The notes below the pieces were generated by a model. The model ran no database searches, was not told the DNA's origin, and worked only from the letters and a program-made list of their open reading frames with translations. A stretch of DNA of 64,000 bases. Origin: Bacteroidia bacterium. GTDB taxonomy: Bacteria > Bacteroidota > Ignavibacteria > SZUA-365. The DNA lies in assembly GCA_027493955.1 (NCBI GenBank), contig JAOSJT010000001.1:3769131-3833130 (forward strand), read 5' to 3'. This document shows positions 13,207-24,332 of this stretch, one piece after another. Made by a program: the position numbers and the translations under genes. How positions within the stretch are numbered: the first letter of the stretch is position 1; each line of letters starts with the position of its first letter.

Positions 13207-15768
13207 TCAACGGAGCAACAACATCGAACGCGTTTGCACAGTCGATGCCGCGCGTAGCCGGTAGAAATACGTCCCGCTTGGGAGATGGGAAGCATCAACG
13301 CGGACGGACCAGCTGCCCGCTTCGTACCTGGCGCTTCCCAGATCCATCAACTGACGTCCATGCGTGTCATACAGCGTCAGTTCCACTTCGGTCGCAACAG
13401 GGAGTTCGAAGCGGATGGTGGTTGAAGGATTAAATGGGTTCGGATAATTCTGATACAGGAATACCCGATCAGGCAGTGGGAACGAATGCCGCTCTGCGGA
13501 TAGAGTCTGATCGCATTTGACTGTTACCGTATCGTGGCTGACAATCAGACCGTTACTCACCGTATTCCAGACTACCTCGAAATCCGCGTTTGCTGTCGCG
13601 TCGTTGTCGTAGCACACCACAAAGCCTTGCAGCCGCTGACCAGGAGAAATTTCGCTCGACGTACTCCTCCAGGTAACCTTTCTGTCGTTCGAAACAGGTG
13701 TCCAAAGATCCGGGGATCGTATGGTGCTCGCGTAGAGCGTGACATCGTCTGTAATAACTTCTGCCGTGAACGAAGTCAGCGGACTCCTCGGCAAATGCTG
13801 ATTATCCACCAGAAATTCAAAACAGCACGGACTGGTGGTGTCTGTGCGTATGTCGACGCGGTCCGGTGCTACCGGTTGAATGGCGCAAAACGCGCTGAGA
13901 GTATCGCAGCACAATGTGCGGTCGTCAAGCAGTGTGCACCAATCCATCGCGATGCGCGTGGAAATTGCGGATGGGACGAGAGAGAGAACAAATCCTTCTG
14001 CTTTCTCACCGGTAAGGATAGTGCCGTTTACTTTGCGAAAAAGCACTGTGGCATCCGTCAGACTTTCCATGTCCCAACCTTGGGGTGCCGAAGCGTCGAT
14101 CAGCACCGTGGCTGGATCGCGGAGAGAGATTCGTATCCCGTCGAAATCCGACTCCGGGACGTGGAGATTCGCCACGTCGATCCGATACGTGCAATACTCA
14201 CCGGATGGTGCTATAGCGAGAGAATCACACCTAGGTTGAATTTGCTCGCAGGTAACCGCATTGAACTCGCAGCATTCGTCATTGCCGTCGAGAGAAGTGC
14301 ACCATTGGTACAATACTTGATTTCCGAAGCTGCCGGGCTGGAGAGAGAGCAAAAACCCGCTCTGTTTACCGGAAGGAGCGATCATTCCTGTTGTATCTCG
14401 GAAAGTGATCTCGGTCGGGCTCTGAAGTTCGATGTTCCAACCGGAAGGAGCAGTCGCATCCAGCATGACGGCACCCGGCGTTTCCAGTTTGAGCCGGAAG
14501 GTGTTCACATTCGATGCGGGTTGATGCTTGTTGACAAAACCGAAATCGTACACGCACCCGCCCCTGGTTCTGACGGCAAATACCGAATCACAAGTGGATG
14601 GGGGAGGAGGATCGCATTGCAATTGCGCCGTGTCGCAACATACTGTCTGATTCTGAAGCATGGAGCACAGAGAGAGCCGTACCAAGCCGGTTGACGATGG
14701 ATTGAAGCGCAAGAGGAAACCGATGGCGGAATCGTTGGGTGCCACGACGCCGGTATTTTTCTTGAAGGTGACTGTACCCGCTGTCTGCGACAGGATGTTC
14801 CAACCCACAGTGGGACTAGCCATTTGAATGCTGGCGCCCGGCGTCAACACGGTTACGCGCACCGCATCGAGATTGGATTGCGGACGGTGGGTATTGAAAA
14901 CGGAAAGCGTCAGAGCGCAATTGCTGCCCTGGCGAACAGAGAAGCTGTCGCACCGTGATGCCACCTTGGGGGTGCAGGCGAACATGACAATGTCTTCGGT
15001 GAGCTTCCCACCATTCAGGGCGGTGGTGTAGCGCATTGCAATGCTCCCAGTGGTACCGCCCGGTGGCCGTATGAAAACCCGAAATCCGCCCAACTGTCCT
15101 CCACTGGCCACTGGTATATCATCCGACTGGAATTCCAGTGTTGTCGGATCCGTAATGCCACCGCCCCAAGGCCCCGAAGGAGTACCGACAAAGGTCGCTC
15201 CCGGCGTCAGCAGTGTGAGTTGCAGGCCGTTCAATGGTCCGGGAGGTTCATGCCTGTTGCGTATCGTCAATTCGAAAGCGCAGGACTCATCCGGCTGATT
15301 CGGTGTCGTTATACCGACGACCAGCAGACTGTCGATGTCCGGGGGTCTGCCTGTACAAATAATGTCCAGCGTATCTTTGGTCTTGACCGTATTGGCATAC
15401 GCAGTCGTCCACTCAACGCGGAAAGCACCATTTGATCCCTGTGGTAAATCGATACACATGATGAATCCGTCAGCTGCTTCGCCGGGAGGGAGCTGGACGC
15501 CGCTCTCTCCGAAGATGAGGAGTGTGTCGCTTTCGATCGCAGGCCAGGGTCCGGGCGCTCCGGGTTGAAAACGGACACCCGGAGTAATGATGCGCAGCGC
15601 GAGTTGATCGAGCATGGATTGGGGTGTGTGTCTGTTCTCAAGACGAAGCTCGTAGCAACACGATGTTGGGTCCGGTTGCGTAACGATAAGCACATCCGGT
15701 CTGTTCTGTGCATGGCTGTGGACAGCACCGAAGGTGAAGAACAGAACGAGTGGGAGCAGCTTTCTCAT
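13207..15768 (-). CDS. T9SS surface protein with six cysteine-flanked tandem domains
   Basis: The protein has 853 aa. Residues 1-20 are a signal peptide (LLPLVLFFTFGAVHSHAQ). Then follow six diverged copies of a domain of about 115-120 residues, each opening with a Cys and N-x-H-x-P motif (ENRHTPQS, RNRHEPPG, FNTHRPQS, VNKHQPAS, ANLHVPES, DNQHLPRS), passing through a GW-containing middle, a GF turn (DGFIMC, GGFRVF, GFLLRF, GFLLSL, EGFVLS, QGFVVC) and closing with a Cys. The tail (YLYQNYPNPFNPSTTIRF-like and LPSGTYFYRLRA) is a classic T9SS type A domain. The repeated unit has no name I recognise; immunoglobulin-like folding is likely. No enzymatic motif is seen. A structural or adhesive role is an inference. 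Confidence 0.85.
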   Translation of the reverse strand: MRKLLPLVLFFTFGAVHSHAQNRPDVLIVTQPDPTSCCYELRLENRHTPQSMLDQLALRIITPGVRFQPGAPGPWPAIESDTLLIFGESGVQLPPGEAADGFIMCIDLPQGSNGAFRVEWTTAYANTVKTKDTLDIICTGRPPDIDSLLVVGITTPNQPDESCAFELTIRNRHEPPGPLNGLQLTLLTPGATFVGTPSGPWGGGITDPTTLEFQSDDIPVASGGQLGGFRVFIRPPGGTTGSIAMRYTTALNGGKLTEDIVMFACTPKVASRCDSFSVRQGSNCALTLSVFNTHRPQSNLDAVRVTVLTPGASIQMASPTVGWNILSQTAGTVTFKKNTGVVAPNDSAIGFLLRFNPSSTGLVRLSLCSMLQNQTVCCDTAQLQCDPPPPSTCDSVFAVRTRGGCVYDFGFVNKHQPASNVNTFRLKLETPGAVMLDATAPSGWNIELQSPTEITFRDTTGMIAPSGKQSGFLLSLQPGSFGNQVLYQWCTSLDGNDECCEFNAVTCEQIQPRCDSLAIAPSGEYCTYRIDVANLHVPESDFDGIRISLRDPATVLIDASAPQGWDMESLTDATVLFRKVNGTILTGEKAEGFVLSLVPSAISTRIAMDWCTLLDDRTLCCDTLSAFCAIQPVAPDRVDIRTDTTSPCCFEFLVDNQHLPRSPLTSFTAEVITDDVTLYASTIRSPDLWTPVSNDRKVTWRSTSSEISPGQRLQGFVVCYDNDATANADFEVVWNTVSNGLIVSHDTVTVKCDQTLSAERHSFPLPDRVFLYQNYPNPFNPSTTIRFELPVATEVELTLYDTHGRQLMDLGSARYEAGSWSVRVDASHLPSGTYFYRLRAASTVQTRSMLLLR

Positions 15769-16115: not shown

Positions 16116-18428
16116 ATGAAACGCTATCTTCGACGCTTCGGCGCCTCGCTGCTTCTCGCTTCCGCCTTGCTCCTGACCTCCTGCTCTCTTTCGAGCGACC
16201 TGACAAAAATGGAGGACAAGGATGATTACGTCGCGTACATAAAAAAATGGGCACCATCGGAGGACGCGTTTCTGGCGGTACAACGTCTGGCGAAACCCGC
16301 ACTCGACGCTCAGGATTGGGAGGCCGCCATTGCCGTCTTCGAACAATACCGCAGCGCCTTTCCTCTTATGGCTGGCCGCTTCGATAAAATCATTTCCTTG
16401 CTTCGGGAGCCATCCTACAATGTCGAATTACGCAACCTGCGTGGGCTCAATACGGAATGGAATGAGATCAAACCCTCCGTCACGGTGGATGGTTCGCGCT
16501 TGTACTTCGCCAGCGACCGAGAAGGTGGATTCGGGAATCTGGACATATACGTGTCGGATTTCGAAAACGACGAGTGGTCGGAACCGGTCAATATCGGTGA
16601 GCGCATCAACACGAAGGAACACGAAACGATCAATGGTATTTCCTTTGACGGAACGAAAATCCTCGTGTACGGTGGTTTCGCCGGTCATCTAGGAAATGGC
16701 GACAATTATTATTTCGAAAAAACTGCCCGCGGCTGGTCCAACATCATCCATTTCCCTCCTCTTGTCAACAGCAAATTCTATGACTCCGATGCGTTCATGA
16801 CTGCGGATGGCTTTGCGGTTCTGTTCACATCGGATCGCGAGGGCGTAACGGGCGACCGCGTCCCAAAGAATACACCCTTTCACGGCGGACTCAACGGTAA
16901 CACCGACATTTTCGTATCGGTGCGGCGCGGTACATACTGGCAGCCACCCATCAATCTCGGACCGGCAATAAACACCCCGTATGCGGAGCGCTCCGCCTTC
17001 CTGCATCCTGACGGAAAAACGCTCTATTTTTCCTCGGACGGCCATCCCGGTCTTGGAAAGCTCGATGTGTTTAAATCCATCCGACTACGCGAAGATTCCT
17101 GGACAGAATGGAGTATACCCGTCAATCTCGGAAAGGATGTGAACACTTCCGAAGATGACTGGGGATACAAAATTACTCCCGATGGCAGGTATGCGTTTTA
17201 TGCCGCATCCAATCGTCCCGGGAGTGCTGGTCAGAACGATCTGTACATGATCACTCTGCCGCGTGCAGCGCGTCCGGAAAGTCCTGTCGCCACGCTTTCC
17301 GGTAATATCCTTGACGACAATGGCAATCCCATCGGTGCCGACATCATGGTGCAGAGGTTGTCGGACGGCAAGGTGGTCGGTACCGGACAGAGCGACCCGG
17401 AAACGGGACGCTTCATGCTTTCGGTTCCCGAAGGAGACAATATCGCCCTTTTCGTTGAAAAAGAGGGCTATTATCCGGATGCGAAGAACCTTGATTTGAG
17501 TAAAGGAAGCCTTGCCGAAGCCGGTGATCGCAACGGCGACGGTCGTAACGGCGACGGTCAGAATGGTGATGGTCGGAATGGTGATGGTCGTAACGGCGAC
17601 GGTCAGAATGGTGATGGCCGGAACGGCGACGGCCGGAATGGTGATGGTCGGAACGGCGACGGCCGGAATGGCGATGGTCGGAATGGCGATGGCCGTAACG
17701 GCGACGGTCAGAATGGAGATGGCCGGAACGGCGACGGTCGGAATGGCGATGGCCGTAACGGCGACGGTCAGAATGGAGATGGCCGGAATGGCGATGGTCG
17801 TAACGGCGACGGTCAGAATGGCGATGGCCGTAACGGCGACGGTCAGAATGGAGATGGTCGGAATGGAGATGGCCGGAATGGCGACGGTCGTAACGGCGAC
17901 GGTCAGAATGGTGATGGTCGGAATGGCGATGGTCGGAATGGTGATGGCCGGAATGGCGATGGCCGGAATGGCGATGGCCGTAACCGAGACGGCCGAGACG
18001 GCAGCGGGCGCAGTTTTTCGTTCAATTTCGACCTGAAGTCCGTCGAGAGCATGAGGAGCAAACGTGACAAATGGGGTGATTTGCTGGCTCAAGGACTGAA
18101 CAACATTTTCTTCGATTTCAACAAATGGGATCTCAGACCAGAATCCTATTTTGAGATAGATCGGCTGCTACGTTTCCTTGAGCTCCACCCTGATCTGCGC
18201 ATCGTCATAGCAGCACATACCGACGACATTGGGACGGAGGATTACAACTTCGATTTGTCCAATAAACGCGCCCGCTCGGTGATGGACTATCTCATTCGCA
18301 AGAACATTGACAGGAGTCGATTGGAATTCCTCGGCTATGGCGAGTCGAGACCAGCCGTCCCGAATGATTCCGAGGAAAACAGGGCGAAGAATCGCCGGGT
18401 TGAATTTCGTCTGGCTGAAACCGACTAA
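16116..18428 (+). CDS. PorE-like OmpA lipoprotein with NGDG pentapeptide repeats
   Basis: The protein has 770 aa from the ATG at 16116, chosen because a type II signal peptide with lipobox LLTSC follows. Order of parts: a short TPR-like helical region (residues 45-95, ALDAQDWEAAIAVFEQY); a PD40-type propeller (about 105-385, repeats such as SRLYFASDREGGFGNLDIYV and KTLYFSSDGHPGLGKLDVF); a carboxypeptidase-regulatory-like fold (about 388-455, TLSGNILDDNGNPI); a low-complexity (R/Q)NGDG repeat (472-621); and an OmpA C-terminal peptidoglycan-binding domain (about 655-768, IFFDFNKWDLRPES, HTDDIGTEDYNFDLSNKRA). This TPR-propeller-CRD-OmpA order is that of PorE, an essential T9SS component that anchors the machine to peptidoglycan. 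The repeat sits exactly between the CRD and the anchor, where PorE has only a linker. It could be a paralogue rather than PorE itself. Confidence 0.85.
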   Translation: MKRYLRRFGASLLLASALLLTSCSLSSDLTKMEDKDDYVAYIKKWAPSEDAFLAVQRLAKPALDAQDWEAAIAVFEQYRSAFPLMAGRFDKIISLLREPSYNVELRNLRGLNTEWNEIKPSVTVDGSRLYFASDREGGFGNLDIYVSDFENDEWSEPVNIGERINTKEHETINGISFDGTKILVYGGFAGHLGNGDNYYFEKTARGWSNIIHFPPLVNSKFYDSDAFMTADGFAVLFTSDREGVTGDRVPKNTPFHGGLNGNTDIFVSVRRGTYWQPPINLGPAINTPYAERSAFLHPDGKTLYFSSDGHPGLGKLDVFKSIRLREDSWTEWSIPVNLGKDVNTSEDDWGYKITPDGRYAFYAASNRPGSAGQNDLYMITLPRAARPESPVATLSGNILDDNGNPIGADIMVQRLSDGKVVGTGQSDPETGRFMLSVPEGDNIALFVEKEGYYPDAKNLDLSKGSLAEAGDRNGDGRNGDGQNGDGRNGDGRNGDGQNGDGRNGDGRNGDGRNGDGRNGDGRNGDGRNGDGQNGDGRNGDGRNGDGRNGDGQNGDGRNGDGRNGDGQNGDGRNGDGQNGDGRNGDGRNGDGRNGDGQNGDGRNGDGRNGDGRNGDGRNGDGRNRDGRDGSGRSFSFNFDLKSVESMRSKRDKWGDLLAQGLNNIFFDFNKWDLRPESYFEIDRLLRFLELHPDLRIVIAAHTDDIGTEDYNFDLSNKRARSVMDYLIRKNIDRSRLEFLGYGESRPAVPNDSEENRAKNRRVEFRLAETD
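17529..17978 (+). repeat. 15-bp tandem repeat, 30 units, encoding (R/Q)NGDG
   Basis: Thirty consecutive 15-bp units encode R-N-G-D-G (22 times) or Q-N-G-D-G (8 times); two degenerate units (RNRDG, RDGSG) follow. Synonymous changes (cggaat/cgtaac, ggtgat/ggcgac) are scattered in blocks, showing repeat expansion by slippage or unequal exchange followed by drift. Because the unit length is a multiple of three, other frames are also open across it, which creates false ORFs on both strands. Confidence 0.95.
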
Positions 18429-18553: not shown

Positions 18554-20023
18554 TCACATTCTCAGGTCTTCGATCACACATTTTGCAGCATGTTTGCCGG
18601 ATAAAAGCACCAACGGCACTCCGCCACCTGGATGAGCGGCACCCCCGCAGAGATACAGACCTCGTGGCTGGCGTACTCTGTTACCTGGACGCAGAAAAGC
18701 GGCATTTCTGGAATTGGAGGAGATTCCGTAAATGCTACCGCGAAAGGCGCTGTATTTTGTCTCGAGATCGGCCGGTGTGATGATGTGCTCGACCATAATG
18801 CGATCACGTATTTCAACACCGCTTGCAGTAAGCTGCCGTAGAACTGATTCGCGGATCCGATCAATGTCCGGCACAGCATTTCGCTCGGTCAATGCCGGCA
18901 TATTGATGAGTACGAACCAGTTCTCTTGACCAGGCGGTGCGTGGTCCGGATCGGCTTTCGATGTTATCGAAACGTACACGGTGGGATCACTGGGAACCCG
19001 GCATTCGTCAAAAATCTGACGGAACTCTTTACGATAATTGCCGGAGAAAAAAATGTTGTGATGGGCGAGTTGTGCATGCGTAGTATCGACGCCCCAGAGA
19101 AAAACGAAACCGCTGCATGAGGGCTCGAAGGTACGTTTGCGTGACCATAGGGTCGAAGCTTCCAGCAAATGTGTCAGGGTGTAGACTGCATCAGCGTTGC
19201 TGACTATCCTCGAAAAAGGAAGGTCCTCACCGTGGATACGTAAGCCCCGGACCCGCTGACCGTCGTGCAATATCTGTTGCACATCCGATTCGTAATGGAG
19301 CGTCACTCCCATGTCCTGTGCCAGACGGGCAAGAGAGGTGACCAGCGCGTGCATTCCTCCGCGGACGTAGTATCCACCCAATCGGTACTCGACATGCGGA
19401 ATGATGTTGAGAGTTGCCGGAGCTTTGAATGGATCGGAGCCATTGTATGTGGCATAGCGATCGAATATCTGTACAAGACGGTGATCTTCGAAAAATGAAG
19501 ACACGGCATTGTGCACACTGCGAAAGGCATCGATACGCGGAAGTTGCAGTAAGGTCAGCAAATTCCGGGTATGGAGAAGGTTCTTTAGGTCATCGAGCCG
19601 GTTGAACAGAAATAGATCGCTCGTCAGACGGTAGATTCGTTCACTGTAATCCAGGAAACGCCGAACCGCCACTTCTTCCCCGGGGGCCAGGTTGCGTACT
19701 TCTTCGAGTAAGCGCATCTCATCAGACCACGCGTCGAATCGTGTACCATCATCAAAAAAATAGCGGCATATCGGATCGACGGGTTCGAATAGGACGTCGC
19801 GTTTTCGTCCAGCCGACGTGTAGAGATCATCCACCACGAAGGGCATGGTCAGAAGTGACGGACCGGTATCAAAACGAAAGCCTCCGGTGCGGACTTCAGC
19901 CGCTTTCCCTCCGGGAGCGGAATGTCGTTCATACAGATGCACCTCGACTCCGGCAACCGCCAGCTCGATAGCGGCGGCGAGACCTCCGAAACCAGCCCCG
20001 ATTACGGCTACCTTCTGCGCCAT
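18554..20023 (-). CDS. crtD: CrtD-type carotenoid 3,4-desaturase (CrtI family)
   Basis: The protein has 489 aa. The N-terminal dinucleotide-binding motif is VAVIGAGFGGLAAAIELA, followed by YERHSAPGGKAAE; the C-terminal FAD motif is GLYLCGGAAHPGGGVPLVLLSG, as in the bacterial phytoene desaturase family. The middle motif RYATYNGSDPFKAPATLNI is closer to 1-hydroxycarotenoid 3,4-desaturases (CrtD) of Bacteroidota than to phytoene desaturases. CrtD would introduce the 3',4' double bond after CruF hydration, and cruF lies 13 bp upstream. It is the last gene of the carotenoid operon. It probably acts at the inner membrane. A phytoene desaturase (CrtI) role remains possible, since the only other CrtI-family gene here is CrtISO-like. 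Confidence 0.8.
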   Translation of the reverse strand: MAQKVAVIGAGFGGLAAAIELAVAGVEVHLYERHSAPGGKAAEVRTGGFRFDTGPSLLTMPFVVDDLYTSAGRKRDVLFEPVDPICRYFFDDGTRFDAWSDEMRLLEEVRNLAPGEEVAVRRFLDYSERIYRLTSDLFLFNRLDDLKNLLHTRNLLTLLQLPRIDAFRSVHNAVSSFFEDHRLVQIFDRYATYNGSDPFKAPATLNIIPHVEYRLGGYYVRGGMHALVTSLARLAQDMGVTLHYESDVQQILHDGQRVRGLRIHGEDLPFSRIVSNADAVYTLTHLLEASTLWSRKRTFEPSCSGFVFLWGVDTTHAQLAHHNIFFSGNYRKEFRQIFDECRVPSDPTVYVSITSKADPDHAPPGQENWFVLINMPALTERNAVPDIDRIRESVLRQLTASGVEIRDRIMVEHIITPADLETKYSAFRGSIYGISSNSRNAAFLRPGNRVRQPRGLYLCGGAAHPGGGVPLVLLSGKHAAKCVIEDLRM

Positions 20024-20036
20024 TGTGCCTCTCGTG

Positions 20037-20687
20037 TCAGGGTAAAAAGATACGCGATTTCAGACCGACCACTGTAAGGGCGAAATACCAGAGCTGTGCC
20101 ATATACAGATGCGCGGGTAGACGGAGATGCGACCTCCGCTTTGTCGTATCGCGCAAGAGCGCCGCCGCTGCCACGCTGATGACGAACCAGCTCATGTAAT
20201 TGCTTGTCGGAGGAAAGCCACCTTCCCAATGCCAGTAATCGAGCGCATCAGCTGCGAACTCCAGAAAGAAGTCAAATATCGTTGCAAAGAGGCCAACCAA
20301 AAGGACGCTGACACGTGAGAAGAAATGTCCGGTCACAGCGTCGCTGCCGGAAATGACCGCGATCCAGGCGAAGGGGATGACCAGCGATACGCCAAGAACC
20401 TGTAGACCCAGTGTATCGGTATAGACATATTCACCGAACGGAAATCCCGTCGCCACGCCCAGAGCTTCCACGCCCCATGTCACCACGAATATGGCCAACG
20501 CGGCAAGACCGCTCTTCCAGCTTATGCGGTATGTCAACGAATAGGAGACTATTGCGGTAATCACCAGCACTGCCGGTGTAGTGTATGTCATGAAGTTCTG
20601 GAAGTATCCGAGGCTGTTCCAGATGCCACCGGCAATGAAAAAAACATACACGCCAACGATTGTCCAGGAGTTATGTCGCAGGTTCAT
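20037..20687 (-). CDS. cruF: CruF-type carotenoid 1',2'-hydratase
   Basis: The protein has 216 aa with six to seven predicted membrane helices and belongs to the carotenoid biosynthesis family that includes CruF (Caroten_synth). Visible signatures are GVEALGVATGFPFGEYVYTD, LGVSLVIPFAWI and FPPTSNYMSWF. CruF adds water across the 1',2' bond of the acyclic end of gamma-carotene to give the 1'-hydroxyl. It starts inside the stop of the upstream oxidoreductase gene (ATGA overlap), so the two are translationally coupled, and it is followed by the CrtD-type desaturase that would use its product. Confidence 0.85.
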   Translation of the reverse strand: MNLRHNSWTIVGVYVFFIAGGIWNSLGYFQNFMTYTTPAVLVITAIVSYSLTYRISWKSGLAALAIFVVTWGVEALGVATGFPFGEYVYTDTLGLQVLGVSLVIPFAWIAVISGSDAVTGHFFSRVSVLLVGLFATIFDFFLEFAADALDYWHWEGGFPPTSNYMSWFVISVAAAALLRDTTKRRSHLRLPAHLYMAQLWYFALTVVGLKSRIFLP

Positions 20688-22219
20688 TCGTCCATCATCC
20701 GAAATCGGTTATACAATGCCAGAGCACCGAGTGTGACACCCGGCAGTCCCTGACCAGGAAATATCGTGTCTCCACACAAATATACACCCTCGAAAGGAGT
20801 TTTCGGACTCGGGAATCGGAAGGGAAACAGCCGTCTGTCGAGTGGCAATCCGCCCACCAGCCCATCCAGCCTTCCGGTGTATTTTTCGAACGTTGTTGGG
20901 GTCCCGCACTGTATTCGTGAAAAGCGGAATTCCCGCAACTCCGGCACATGTGAGCGCAGCGCAACTTCGACTTCGGCAGCGGCATACGCTTTCCATGCTT
21001 TTCTTTGCTCACCTCTTTGCAGAAGCGCGGGATGATCCCGTCGGATATGGGTGCTGATAGTAAGCGCCCTGTATCCGTCTGGCGCTCTTCTCGCATCGGC
21101 AGGATGGGAAAAGGAACAAAACAATGTGCTGCTGCCGCAATATTCCAATGCATGCGGGAGGATCACCTGCAAATTTATCGGCACCTCCTTCACCAGTTCA
21201 CTCTCCACGAGTGCATACACCGTGAATGCACCCCAGAGTGTCACCCCGGACGACTCGATGCGTCTTACTATGCGTCGGAAGTAGTTGGCAGCCTCGCCGT
21301 CGAATATGGCAGGAAGGTTGAATATCGGTACACTGCTCACGACGACAGGTGACGTATATACGGTGCCTCGCGCGGTCCGGACAGACCACCCTCCACTCTC
21401 GCGGGTCACTGCAACGACACGTTGCAGATACTCGACGTAGCCACCAGCACTGTGCAGACGCTCCTCAAGAAACCGTGCATAGGCGATCATACCTCCTGCC
21501 ACAGAGAAGACGGGATAATCAGGATAGGTAAGCCCCAGTGCACCCGCCAGAAAGGGGATATGGGAGGACGATGCCTGACTGGTGATGAGCAACTGGGCAT
21601 CGATGAAACGACGGAATTCCGGGTCGGAGAGCCCGTGTCGTTGTATTCGAGACGCTATGGGCGATAGCACATGGGGAAGATGCCGTAACACAGCAGGCTG
21701 CAGACTACGCAGATCTGCCAGTGCTTCCAGCGGAGTCAAAGGAGGGAGATGGCGCACCGCGGTAAGCATACCGTATGCTGCATCACTGAAATGCCGTAGT
21801 TCATCCCAAAATGCTCTCTGATCCTGTCCGAAGTGATCCCGCACCTGTTCGTACCAGCTGAAGCGATCCGGACTCCGGTGCAGCGTGCGTGCGTTCATGG
21901 ACACTCCCATAGGAGGATCGGCTGGAAGCAATGCGTCGAATTCTCCAATAATGTCGAAGAGCGCGCGTAACGGTTGACCCGGCGCGATCCCGCTAAACGT
22001 CGTTGCTCCGACATCGAACACTGCTCCATCCTTTTCATAGGATGACGCGCAGCCACCGGGGTAATGAATGCCCTCCAGAACCAGCACCTTTCGACCCGTC
22101 GTGGCCAACAAAGCCGCAGAGGTCAAACCCGCAATCCCGGCACCTATGACGATCACGTCCGGATCACCAATGGTCTCAACCACCGGTAACCCGGATAGCG
22201 CACGTGGAGAACTGTTCAT
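20684..22219 (-). CDS. CrtI/CrtISO-like carotenoid oxidoreductase
   Basis: The protein has 511 aa from the ATG at 22219, which overlaps the previous stop as ATGA. The N-terminal motif VIVIGAGIAGLTSAALLATTG is followed by LEGIHYPGGCASSYEKDG, with a C-terminal FAD motif VYLCGDTIFPGQGLPGVTLG. The central QLLITSQASSSHIPFLAGAL is of the kind found in carotenoid isomerases (CrtISO/CrtH) and cyanobacterial C-3',4' desaturases rather than CrtI. Possible roles are phytoene or zeta-carotene desaturation, cis-trans isomerisation or a late desaturation. As no third CrtI-family gene is present here, this one or the crtD-like gene may have to supply lycopene, unless crtI lies elsewhere. It is a flavoprotein at the membrane surface. 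Confidence 0.7.
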   Translation of the reverse strand: MNSSPRALSGLPVVETIGDPDVIVIGAGIAGLTSAALLATTGRKVLVLEGIHYPGGCASSYEKDGAVFDVGATTFSGIAPGQPLRALFDIIGEFDALLPADPPMGVSMNARTLHRSPDRFSWYEQVRDHFGQDQRAFWDELRHFSDAAYGMLTAVRHLPPLTPLEALADLRSLQPAVLRHLPHVLSPIASRIQRHGLSDPEFRRFIDAQLLITSQASSSHIPFLAGALGLTYPDYPVFSVAGGMIAYARFLEERLHSAGGYVEYLQRVVAVTRESGGWSVRTARGTVYTSPVVVSSVPIFNLPAIFDGEAANYFRRIVRRIESSGVTLWGAFTVYALVESELVKEVPINLQVILPHALEYCGSSTLFCSFSHPADARRAPDGYRALTISTHIRRDHPALLQRGEQRKAWKAYAAAEVEVALRSHVPELREFRFSRIQCGTPTTFEKYTGRLDGLVGGLPLDRRLFPFRFPSPKTPFEGVYLCGDTIFPGQGLPGVTLGALALYNRFRMMDE

Positions 22220-23340
22220 GTGTCCGACCCACGTACCGGAATGGTCCGTCCCTTCCACCGCACTGCGCCTCGGGCATAACGTTGCCAGACTGCATGAATA
22301 CCGATACCTACCGCGGCCAAAATGCCAAACGGGTGAAGAAGCACTGTCACCATTCCGTGTCGCAATCGCAGAGCAAGGAATGAGCGCAGCAGCAGATTCA
22401 GGAGAACAAGCACCGAAGCCAATACGGACGGCTTCACCGCGAGTGCAACGTACGGTGCGACGAACAGAAGCAGTAACAACACATGCGCAGCGCCGAAGGC
22501 AACGACATTAAAATTGAACGCCGCGAAAAAATTCTTTGAAAAGCCCTCCAGCACTTCGCGACCGCTGTTGTACATTCGGCAATTCACAGCCCCGACTCCC
22601 GACATGAGAAGCATGCGCAGCCCCAACTGTTTGCTCCGCTGCGCCAGACGTATGTCTTCCACAATTTCCGAACGGACCGCTGCATGACCTCCCACACGCA
22701 CGTAGGACTTTCGCGTGAAGGCTATCCATTGACCGTTCGCAGCCGAGAGCGATGAAAATCGTGTGCGATGCACCAATTGCATTGGAAGGAAGGCGTAGAG
22801 CAACACATCCATCACCGGGACGATCAGGCGTGAAGCAATGCCGCGCAGGAGCTGTCGCGGAAATGCGGAGAGTACATCAGCGCGATAGGCGTGCATTGCC
22901 CCGACCGTCCCGGACAGTGCTGAGATCTCCGGTCGTACATCCGCATCCATGAACAGAAGCACATCACCTCGCGCCTGCTCTGAAAGTTGATGACAGGCCC
23001 AGTTCTTTCCCGTCCAACCTGGCGGCAGCGAATTTCCCTTTATGAGCGAAACAGCGCTCCATCGTGAGCTCGCAGCTTCTACCAGAGCAGCGGTGTTATC
23101 GGTCGATTCGTCGTCGAGTACCAACACATCAAAGTTTTCCCAATCCTGCGCTTCAAGTGCGTCCAGAAGACCCTGGATGTTCGTGCCTTCATTGCGAGCA
23201 GGAATGCAAACGGTAATCCAGGGAGATGCTCCGCGGGATGCGCGTCTCTTCGCAAGAAACGGGCCAAACACCATGTTCACACCCGCAACTACAACTAGAG
23301 CGGAGAGTACAACCCCGATCCCTATCAGGAACACGTCCAT
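22216..23340 (-). CDS. Family 2 glycosyltransferase, CruG-like
   Basis: The protein has 374 aa with one N-terminal membrane helix, a GT2 catalytic domain (ITVCIPARNEGTNIQGLL, VLDDESTDNTAALVE, the DxD motif in LLFMDADVRPE, and a QxxRW-like EIVEDIRLAQRSKQLGL) and three to four C-terminal membrane helices. This layout is that of CruG, which glycosylates hydroxylated carotenoids in cyanobacteria, and of HpnB-like transferases. With CruF in the same operon, a carotenoid glycoside is the likely product; the sugar and the hydroxyl used cannot be read. It follows crtB after 8 bp and overlaps the next gene by 4 bp. Confidence 0.75.
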   Translation of the reverse strand: MDVFLIGIGVVLSALVVVAGVNMVFGPFLAKRRASRGASPWITVCIPARNEGTNIQGLLDALEAQDWENFDVLVLDDESTDNTAALVEAASSRWSAVSLIKGNSLPPGWTGKNWACHQLSEQARGDVLLFMDADVRPEISALSGTVGAMHAYRADVLSAFPRQLLRGIASRLIVPVMDVLLYAFLPMQLVHRTRFSSLSAANGQWIAFTRKSYVRVGGHAAVRSEIVEDIRLAQRSKQLGLRMLLMSGVGAVNCRMYNSGREVLEGFSKNFFAAFNFNVVAFGAAHVLLLLLFVAPYVALAVKPSVLASVLVLLNLLLRSFLALRLRHGMVTVLLHPFGILAAVGIGIHAVWQRYARGAVRWKGRTIPVRGSDT

Positions 23341-23348
23341 AATACCGA

Positions 23349-24332
23349 CTAATCAACCGACGTCATTTGCGGCAGCGTTGCTTTGTTGACTTCGGCAACG
23401 TGTTGTTGCAGTTCGGGGCTCTTATGGGTATTTCGGGCAAAATTCCCAAAAGGAAAAAGCATGAAACCCAGTGTGGTGAATTTGCGAAGCGTGGAAACGA
23501 CGGGCCGTCTGGTAAAAATATCGTAGTCATTTCTCTCAATCTCAAAGAGAATCCCGCGGTAGAGTCGCGATGCCGCACGGACAGCACCGCGCCCGCTTCG
23601 ATGCAACAGGGGTATACCGTGTTCGGCGCGGTCGAAATAGGTATGCGCGCGATCCACCTCGAAACGGAGGAATGACTTCATCGTGCTATCCAGGCGCTGT
23701 GCGGCTATATCCGCTTCGCTCAGACCGTACGAAGCGAGTTCGTCCATCGGCAGGTACACCTTACCGCGCAGCCGCCAGTCCTCGTCAACGTCACGAAGAA
23801 TATTGGTAAGTTGCATGCCAATACCGAGATCTTCCGCATAGGGAAAAGCTGCGCGATCATGATAGCCGAACACATGCGTCATCATCAGCCCGACCACGGA
23901 AGCGACATGATAACAGAATTTACGCAGCTCGGTAAATGAATAATAGCGGTCAAACTGCAGATCCATCGCTACTCCATCGATCAGCGCGTGCGCAAGCTGC
24001 ACTGGGATGCCGCGATGATGTACCGTACGGATGAAGGTCGCCATGACCGGATGCTGAGATTCTCCCGAAATGTACGCCTGCGTAAGTTCCTCGCGCCAGG
24101 CGTCGAGTTCCTGCTTCACGATTGTCTGAGGCCTGCTTCTCGGAGCGTCGACAATGTTGTCCGTATGTCTGCAAAATCCATACACGGCGTACACATCATC
24201 GCGACGCGACAACGGCATGAGCTGCGTAGCCAAATAAAAACTCTTCGAATAGGTGCGGGTGAGAAGCCGGACATACTGACGTGCCGGAAGCAGGTCCAGA
24301 TTCGCGTCAGCGTTGGGCGACGTCAAGGTCAT
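23349..24332 (-). CDS. crtB: Phytoene synthase
   Basis: The protein has 327 aa of the squalene/phytoene synthase family. It condenses two geranylgeranyl diphosphates to phytoene. The two aspartate-rich, Mg-diphosphate binding motifs are present: RHTDNIVD near residue 55 and DLGIGMQLTNILRDVDED near residue 170, with the flap region ending RGKVYLPMDEL that is typical of CrtB. A strong AGGAGAG precedes the ATG. It lies 15 bp after crtYd and 8 bp before the glycosyltransferase in the same operon. No geranylgeranyl diphosphate synthase (crtE) is in the window. Confidence 0.93.
   Translation of the reverse strand: MTLTSPNADANLDLLPARQYVRLLTRTYSKSFYLATQLMPLSRRDDVYAVYGFCRHTDNIVDAPRSRPQTIVKQELDAWREELTQAYISGESQHPVMATFIRTVHHRGIPVQLAHALIDGVAMDLQFDRYYSFTELRKFCYHVASVVGLMMTHVFGYHDRAAFPYAEDLGIGMQLTNILRDVDEDWRLRGKVYLPMDELASYGLSEADIAAQRLDSTMKSFLRFEVDRAHTYFDRAEHGIPLLHRSGRGAVRAASRLYRGILFEIERNDYDIFTRRPVVSTLRKFTTLGFMLFPFGNFARNTHKSPELQQHVAEVNKATLPQMTSVD

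Follow-up and report, generated by a model that had tools for sequence, protein, structure and literature searches.

A predicted disordered tandem-repeat array, rewritten between related species, inside the CRD of a PorE/CHU_0125-like lipoprotein

A 770-residue lipoprotein-type protein encoded in the window (the whole 64-kb stretch of DNA that was analysed, within which all nucleotide positions below are numbered) carries an array of 30 (R/Q)NGDG units, and we see a slightly better than even chance that this array is a disordered loop or tether of evolvable length within an anchor between the outer membrane and peptidoglycan. Envelope lipoproteins commonly contain disordered linkers, of which selection may see the length, the charge or the sequence. 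Here the same loop has been rewritten with unrelated units and lengths, providing a natural series that could separate these three properties. The branch of the PorE/CHU_0125 group concerned is lipid-anchored and has a feature that its class-level relatives do not share. The open reading frame starts at the ATG at 16116 and ends at 18428; its features and its divergent neighbor are as follows.

13207 to 15768, minus strand: divergent neighbor, an 853-residue repeat protein with a T9SS type A sorting domain (TIGR04183; synteny)
16116 to 18428, plus strand: gene for the 770-residue lipoprotein-type protein of PorE/CHU_0125-like architecture (ORF and translation; Pfam)
16116 to 16184, plus strand: signal peptide with the lipobox LTSC at its end, Cys23 being followed by Ser (lipobox scan)
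16218 to 16406, plus strand: TPR-like helical N-terminal part, four helices, residues 35-97 (AlphaFold2 secondary structure)
16428 to 17255, plus strand: beta-propeller (PD40/WD40-like) of TolB-like fold (Pfam PD40; Foldseek matches to TolB)
17286 to 17495, plus strand: first six strands of the CRD, residues 391-460 (weak PF13620 match; six strands in the model)
17529 to 17978, plus strand: array of 30 x 15 bp, (R/Q)NGDG, predicted to be disordered (sequence; model pLDDT)
17979 to 18011, plus strand: degenerate 3' end of the array, RNRDGRDGSGR (translation)
18012 to 18041, plus strand: last CRD strand, SFSFNFDLKS region, separated by the array from the other CRD strands (alignment; model)
18108 to 18395, plus strand: OmpA-like peptidoglycan-binding domain (PF00691, 9e-23)

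The preliminary description had read the domain order as TPR, propeller, CRD and OmpA, and this order was borne out by Pfam together with the AlphaFold2 model. Three PD40 matches and the OmpA domain scored over the Pfam cut-off, the four N-terminal helices were modeled at a pLDDT of about 85-96 with no Pfam match to TPR, and the CarboxypepD_reg match that marks the CRD (PF13620, residues 393-465, profile positions 1-73 of 82) was weak and fell below the cut-off. Foldseek matched the fold of the propeller to TolB and that of the OmpA domain to Pal, OprF and PorE; the best solved relative of the latter domain in the PDB is the PorE domain 6TOP. Further, D703, N711 and R718 of the OmpA domain correspond, with identical spacing, to the peptidoglycan-contact residues D576, N584 and R591 of PorE (PMC7192894). 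No OmpA domain in the genome reached the Pal cut-off, and the domain of the array protein ranked second among them. A lipobox scan found the motif in all 12 order-level orthologs and in none of the 14 class-level orthologs whose N terminus is present. The array protein is thus probably a lipoprotein anchor that links the outer membrane with the wall, in agreement with the lipobox, the peptidoglycan-contact residues and the TolB and Pal/PorE fold matches.

The array had been placed between the CRD and the OmpA domain, which is wrong by one beta strand, because three comparisons locate it within the last CRD hairpin, before the final strand. First, the CRD profile runs unbroken over residues 416-493 (profile positions 1-79 of 82) of an insert-free ortholog (L029), and this span maps to residues 393 and 634 of the array protein, which flank the array. 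Second, the CRD construct of Porphyromonas gingivalis ends in YVDFFLAS (translated from its reverse primer; PMC7192894), which by eye corresponds to the SFNFDLKS that follows the array. Third, the AlphaFold2 model recovers a pLDDT of 84-91 after the array and predicts a strand at residues 633-635 (pLDDT 84 in its block). Between this strand and the OmpA domain (18042-18107), the array clade has about six extra residues (the KRDKWGDLL region) that neither the insert-free ortholog L022 nor the class orthologs possess.

The array itself consists, as originally counted, of exactly 30.0 tandem copies (residues 472-621), of which 23 begin with R and 7 with Q, giving a composition of 60 G, 30 N, 30 D, 23 R and 7 Q. 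Tandem Repeats Finder scored it at 488-515, with periods of 30, 45 or 75 bp that are multiples of the 15-bp unit, and reported no second tandem array in the window. A back-translated two-unit pattern matched the 5.24-Mb genome 29 times, every time within the array gene, and the reversed control pattern gave 0 matches in the same genome. The 30 units are spelled in 15 ways as DNA and in only 2 as peptide: relative to the unit consensus, codon positions 1, 2 and 3 differ 0, 7 and 53 times, and connecting the units by a minimum spanning tree takes 14 changes, 2 of them nonsynonymous (both R/Q), where 24.5% of the possible point changes in the units would be synonymous. In one ortholog (G061) serine is spelled by both TCN and AGY codons, and codon-pair differences within its array comprise 89 synonymous versus 22 nonsynonymous. 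Because changes between units are nearly all synonymous, selection acts on the array peptide and not on the DNA, and a DNA-level role of the repeat was rejected on the same ground. Two long overlapping reading frames (17512-18036, plus strand, and 17085-18092, minus strand) were dismissed as shadows of the stop-free repeat, which leaves several frames open. An assembly artefact is unlikely given the 15 distinct units, the one-contig genome and the arrays of relatives at the same place.

The array is predicted to be an intrinsically disordered tandem-repeat region, judging from its hydrophilic, low-complexity composition and from a pLDDT of 30-37 across most of residues 465-629 in the full AlphaFold2 model; modeled alone, it acquired no structure (pLDDT about 38-40). 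Asn-Gly and Asp-Gly pairs, of which the array has 30 each, tend to undergo deamidation or isomerization; some orthologs are without Asn-Gly, so these pairs are not conserved. Our literature search found no papers on NGDG repeats. A Planctomycetota metagenome contig (L051:4672-4905) contains a 78-residue reading frame that ends in seven QNGDG repeats and is without an OmpA domain; it may have arisen independently or be a contaminant.

A comparison of the repeat in related genomes, as the preliminary description had suggested, revealed that both the unit and its number differ between species. The ortholog search covered 16 genomes of the order, and a G/N/D/S/R-rich segment was found at the same place in each of the 11 orthologs of the array clade in which this region could be read, ten from the same family (the source protein included) and one from another family (G108). 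Complete segments run from 29 to 190 residues: 166 in the source protein (RNGDG), and 136 (NGGNRNGNGDG), 190 (SGNGDG), 88 (SGNDG), 53 (NGRNGNDP) and 29 (GGS-type) in others, and SGSGDG is a further unit. Two sister pairs are 82.9% and 87.8% identical outside the array, yet their units differ; the remainder of the protein is about 69-88% identical between related species. Five of the 11 array orthologs stop inside the array at contig ends, as is usual for repeats, and because each broken half retains its expected neighbor (the T9SS cargo gene on one side, the carotenoid desaturase gene on the other), the halves were counted as one gene. The nearest complete insert-free ortholog belongs to the sister family f2 (L022); in the same family, the L021 piece shows no insert before its contig end and the partial G075 piece has no room left for one. 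L022 and the other class orthologs have 0-2 residues at the array site. A clear ortholog was not found in G042 and G068, two genomes from the source protein's own family; this counts against the role proposed below, since the gene may be one that cells can do without, although it may also have fallen into assembly gaps. In a quick tree with SH-aLRT support, built without bootstrap, the 12 order-level orthologs group together (99%), and the 11 array bearers group inside them (99%); a root outside the group would place lipidation before the array. In the class family f15 (L023-L028, L030), two array-free paralogs adjoin each other.

Evolution thus seems to keep the disordered character of the segment while its sequence and length are rewritten. 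A precedent for disordered regions built from repeats is found in the aaTRs of Borg elements (PMC9879509): like the present array, they are fast-evolving in-frame repeats, and their homologues keep similar amino acids. Unlike the Borg repeats, which are nearly perfect in DNA, the present array combines many DNA spellings with a uniform protein sequence, and it sits in a bacterial envelope anchor.

We propose that the TolB-like propeller of the outer-membrane lipoprotein probably binds a partner, that the OmpA domain would bind peptidoglycan, and that the array would form a hydrophilic disordered loop in the last CRD beta-hairpin, just before the peptidoglycan-binding domain. In vivo, such a loop could give slack and steric room where the outer-membrane-bound and wall-bound parts meet. 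If the last CRD strand is docked, the array would project as a side bristle; if the strand is pulled out, it would become a tether that extends the contour length by as much as about 60 nm (an estimate from about 165 residues at 0.36 nm). The term tether depends on release of the strand, because a docked last strand leaves the CRD-to-OmpA distance unchanged. What is selected would be disorder and G/N/D/S/R composition, with no precise sequence, length or ion site, and tandem duplication of whole codons would allow turnover of unit and length without frameshifts. A more specific version, which we regard as a long shot, is that the array supplies slack in a docked hairpin until tension frees the last strand, yielding a roughly 60-nm, force-limited safety line whose reach evolves by lineage through repeat turnover. 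Escherichia coli Pal provides a precedent for linker length mattering, as a shorter disordered linker there leads to a graded impairment of function (PMC12826056). The Pal linker, too, is a disordered stretch from a lipid-anchored end to an OmpA-type peptidoglycan domain; it differs in being N-terminal (residues 25-68) and much shorter, whereas the present array lies inside a beta-sandwich domain.

A serious, if unlikely, alternative is that the array arose by neutral slippage and is tolerated in a surface loop with no function of its own. Unit turnover between sister species is fast, the loop position accepts insertions, the units are whole codons, and selection against harmful residues alone would yield the same pattern. 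Against this, synonymous changes strongly exceed nonsynonymous ones, the serine codon families are mixed in G061, all readable clade members share the composition, and the motif occurs nowhere else in the genome.

It is quite improbable, in our assessment, that the protein is this organism's PorE and that the array fixes the spacing between the T9SS machine and the wall, a distance-setting role that had been suggested. The protein resembles PorE (PG1058) of the P. gingivalis T9SS in domain order, lipoprotein character, peptidoglycan-contact residues and the 6TOP match; curated PorE membership is not supported. The protein scored 191.7 bits with the NCBIfam PorE model (NF052230) against a cut-off of 600, and a paralogue in the genome fits this model better. 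The cut-off is narrow, as 148 genomes drawn from across the phylum all fall short of it. Its best-scoring family is the CHU_0125 OmpA-like family (NF053607), at 253.6 bits against a cut-off of 620. A phylum sequence that passes this second cut-off, with 809 bits, is one of those best matching the PorE model, and the orthologous group branches apart from the latter sequences. The array protein is a member of the broader PorE/CHU_0125 group, whose proteins combine a TolB propeller with a Pal domain and occur in bacteria that have a T9SS. Like the array protein, the CHU_0125 family outer-membrane integrity protein of Cytophaga hutchinsonii has TPR, PD40 and OmpA_C-like domains, and when it is deleted the outer membrane becomes weaker and vesicle release rises about six-fold (PMC5891637). 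Further, the CRD (441-527) and OmpA (534-668) domains of PorE abut, with no array between them (PMC7192894), whereas the present array lies inside the CRD, and its displacement by one beta strand weakens the simple distance-setting idea; a spread of 29-190 residues among related genera is also odd for fixing one distance.

Consistent with a link to secretion, the genome likely encodes a T9SS, as judged from profile matches: SprA (SprA/Sov) scored over its cut-off and 150 places scored as sorting-domain matches (a first look gave 347 candidates, of which 150 were scored). GldK matches fell below their cut-off, and the GldM model found no match in the genome, being equally silent in every control genome. 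The divergent neighbor matches TIGR04183 at 34.3 bits against a cut-off of 23, and this T9SS cargo gene is kept beside the array gene in array-bearing relatives. Any part of the array protein in this likely secretion system is putative.

The least probable reading, to which we give very little credence, is that the array is a calcium-binding module whose Asp/Asn loops fold or stiffen with calcium. Each pentamer does contain one Asp and one Asn, several relatives have acidic Gly/Asn-rich repeats, and TSP3-type calcium repeats are known ahead of other OmpA domains. The likeness to a repeated DxNxDG loop that had been put forward was nevertheless not borne out by the array, in which the DxNxDG, DxDxDGxxDxxD and GGxGxD patterns (EF-hand-like, TSP3-like and RTX-like) each have 0 matches; DxNxDG is absent because the spacing is D-G-R-N-G-D-G, and the sole match resembling D.[DN].DG falls within the degenerate 3' edge. 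In most units of the array R offsets D, ortholog arrays of GGS, NGRNGNDP or SGSGDG are without a calcium-loop pattern, and the net charge of the readable ortholog pieces, the small G081 insert left out, ranges from -1 to -33, so that a conserved ion site is unlikely.

Downstream of the array gene, on the minus strand (18554-24332), lie the carotenoid genes for a crtI-type desaturase, a CrtD-like protein and a phytoene-synthase-like protein, and a carotenoid desaturase gene adjoins the array gene in several relatives.
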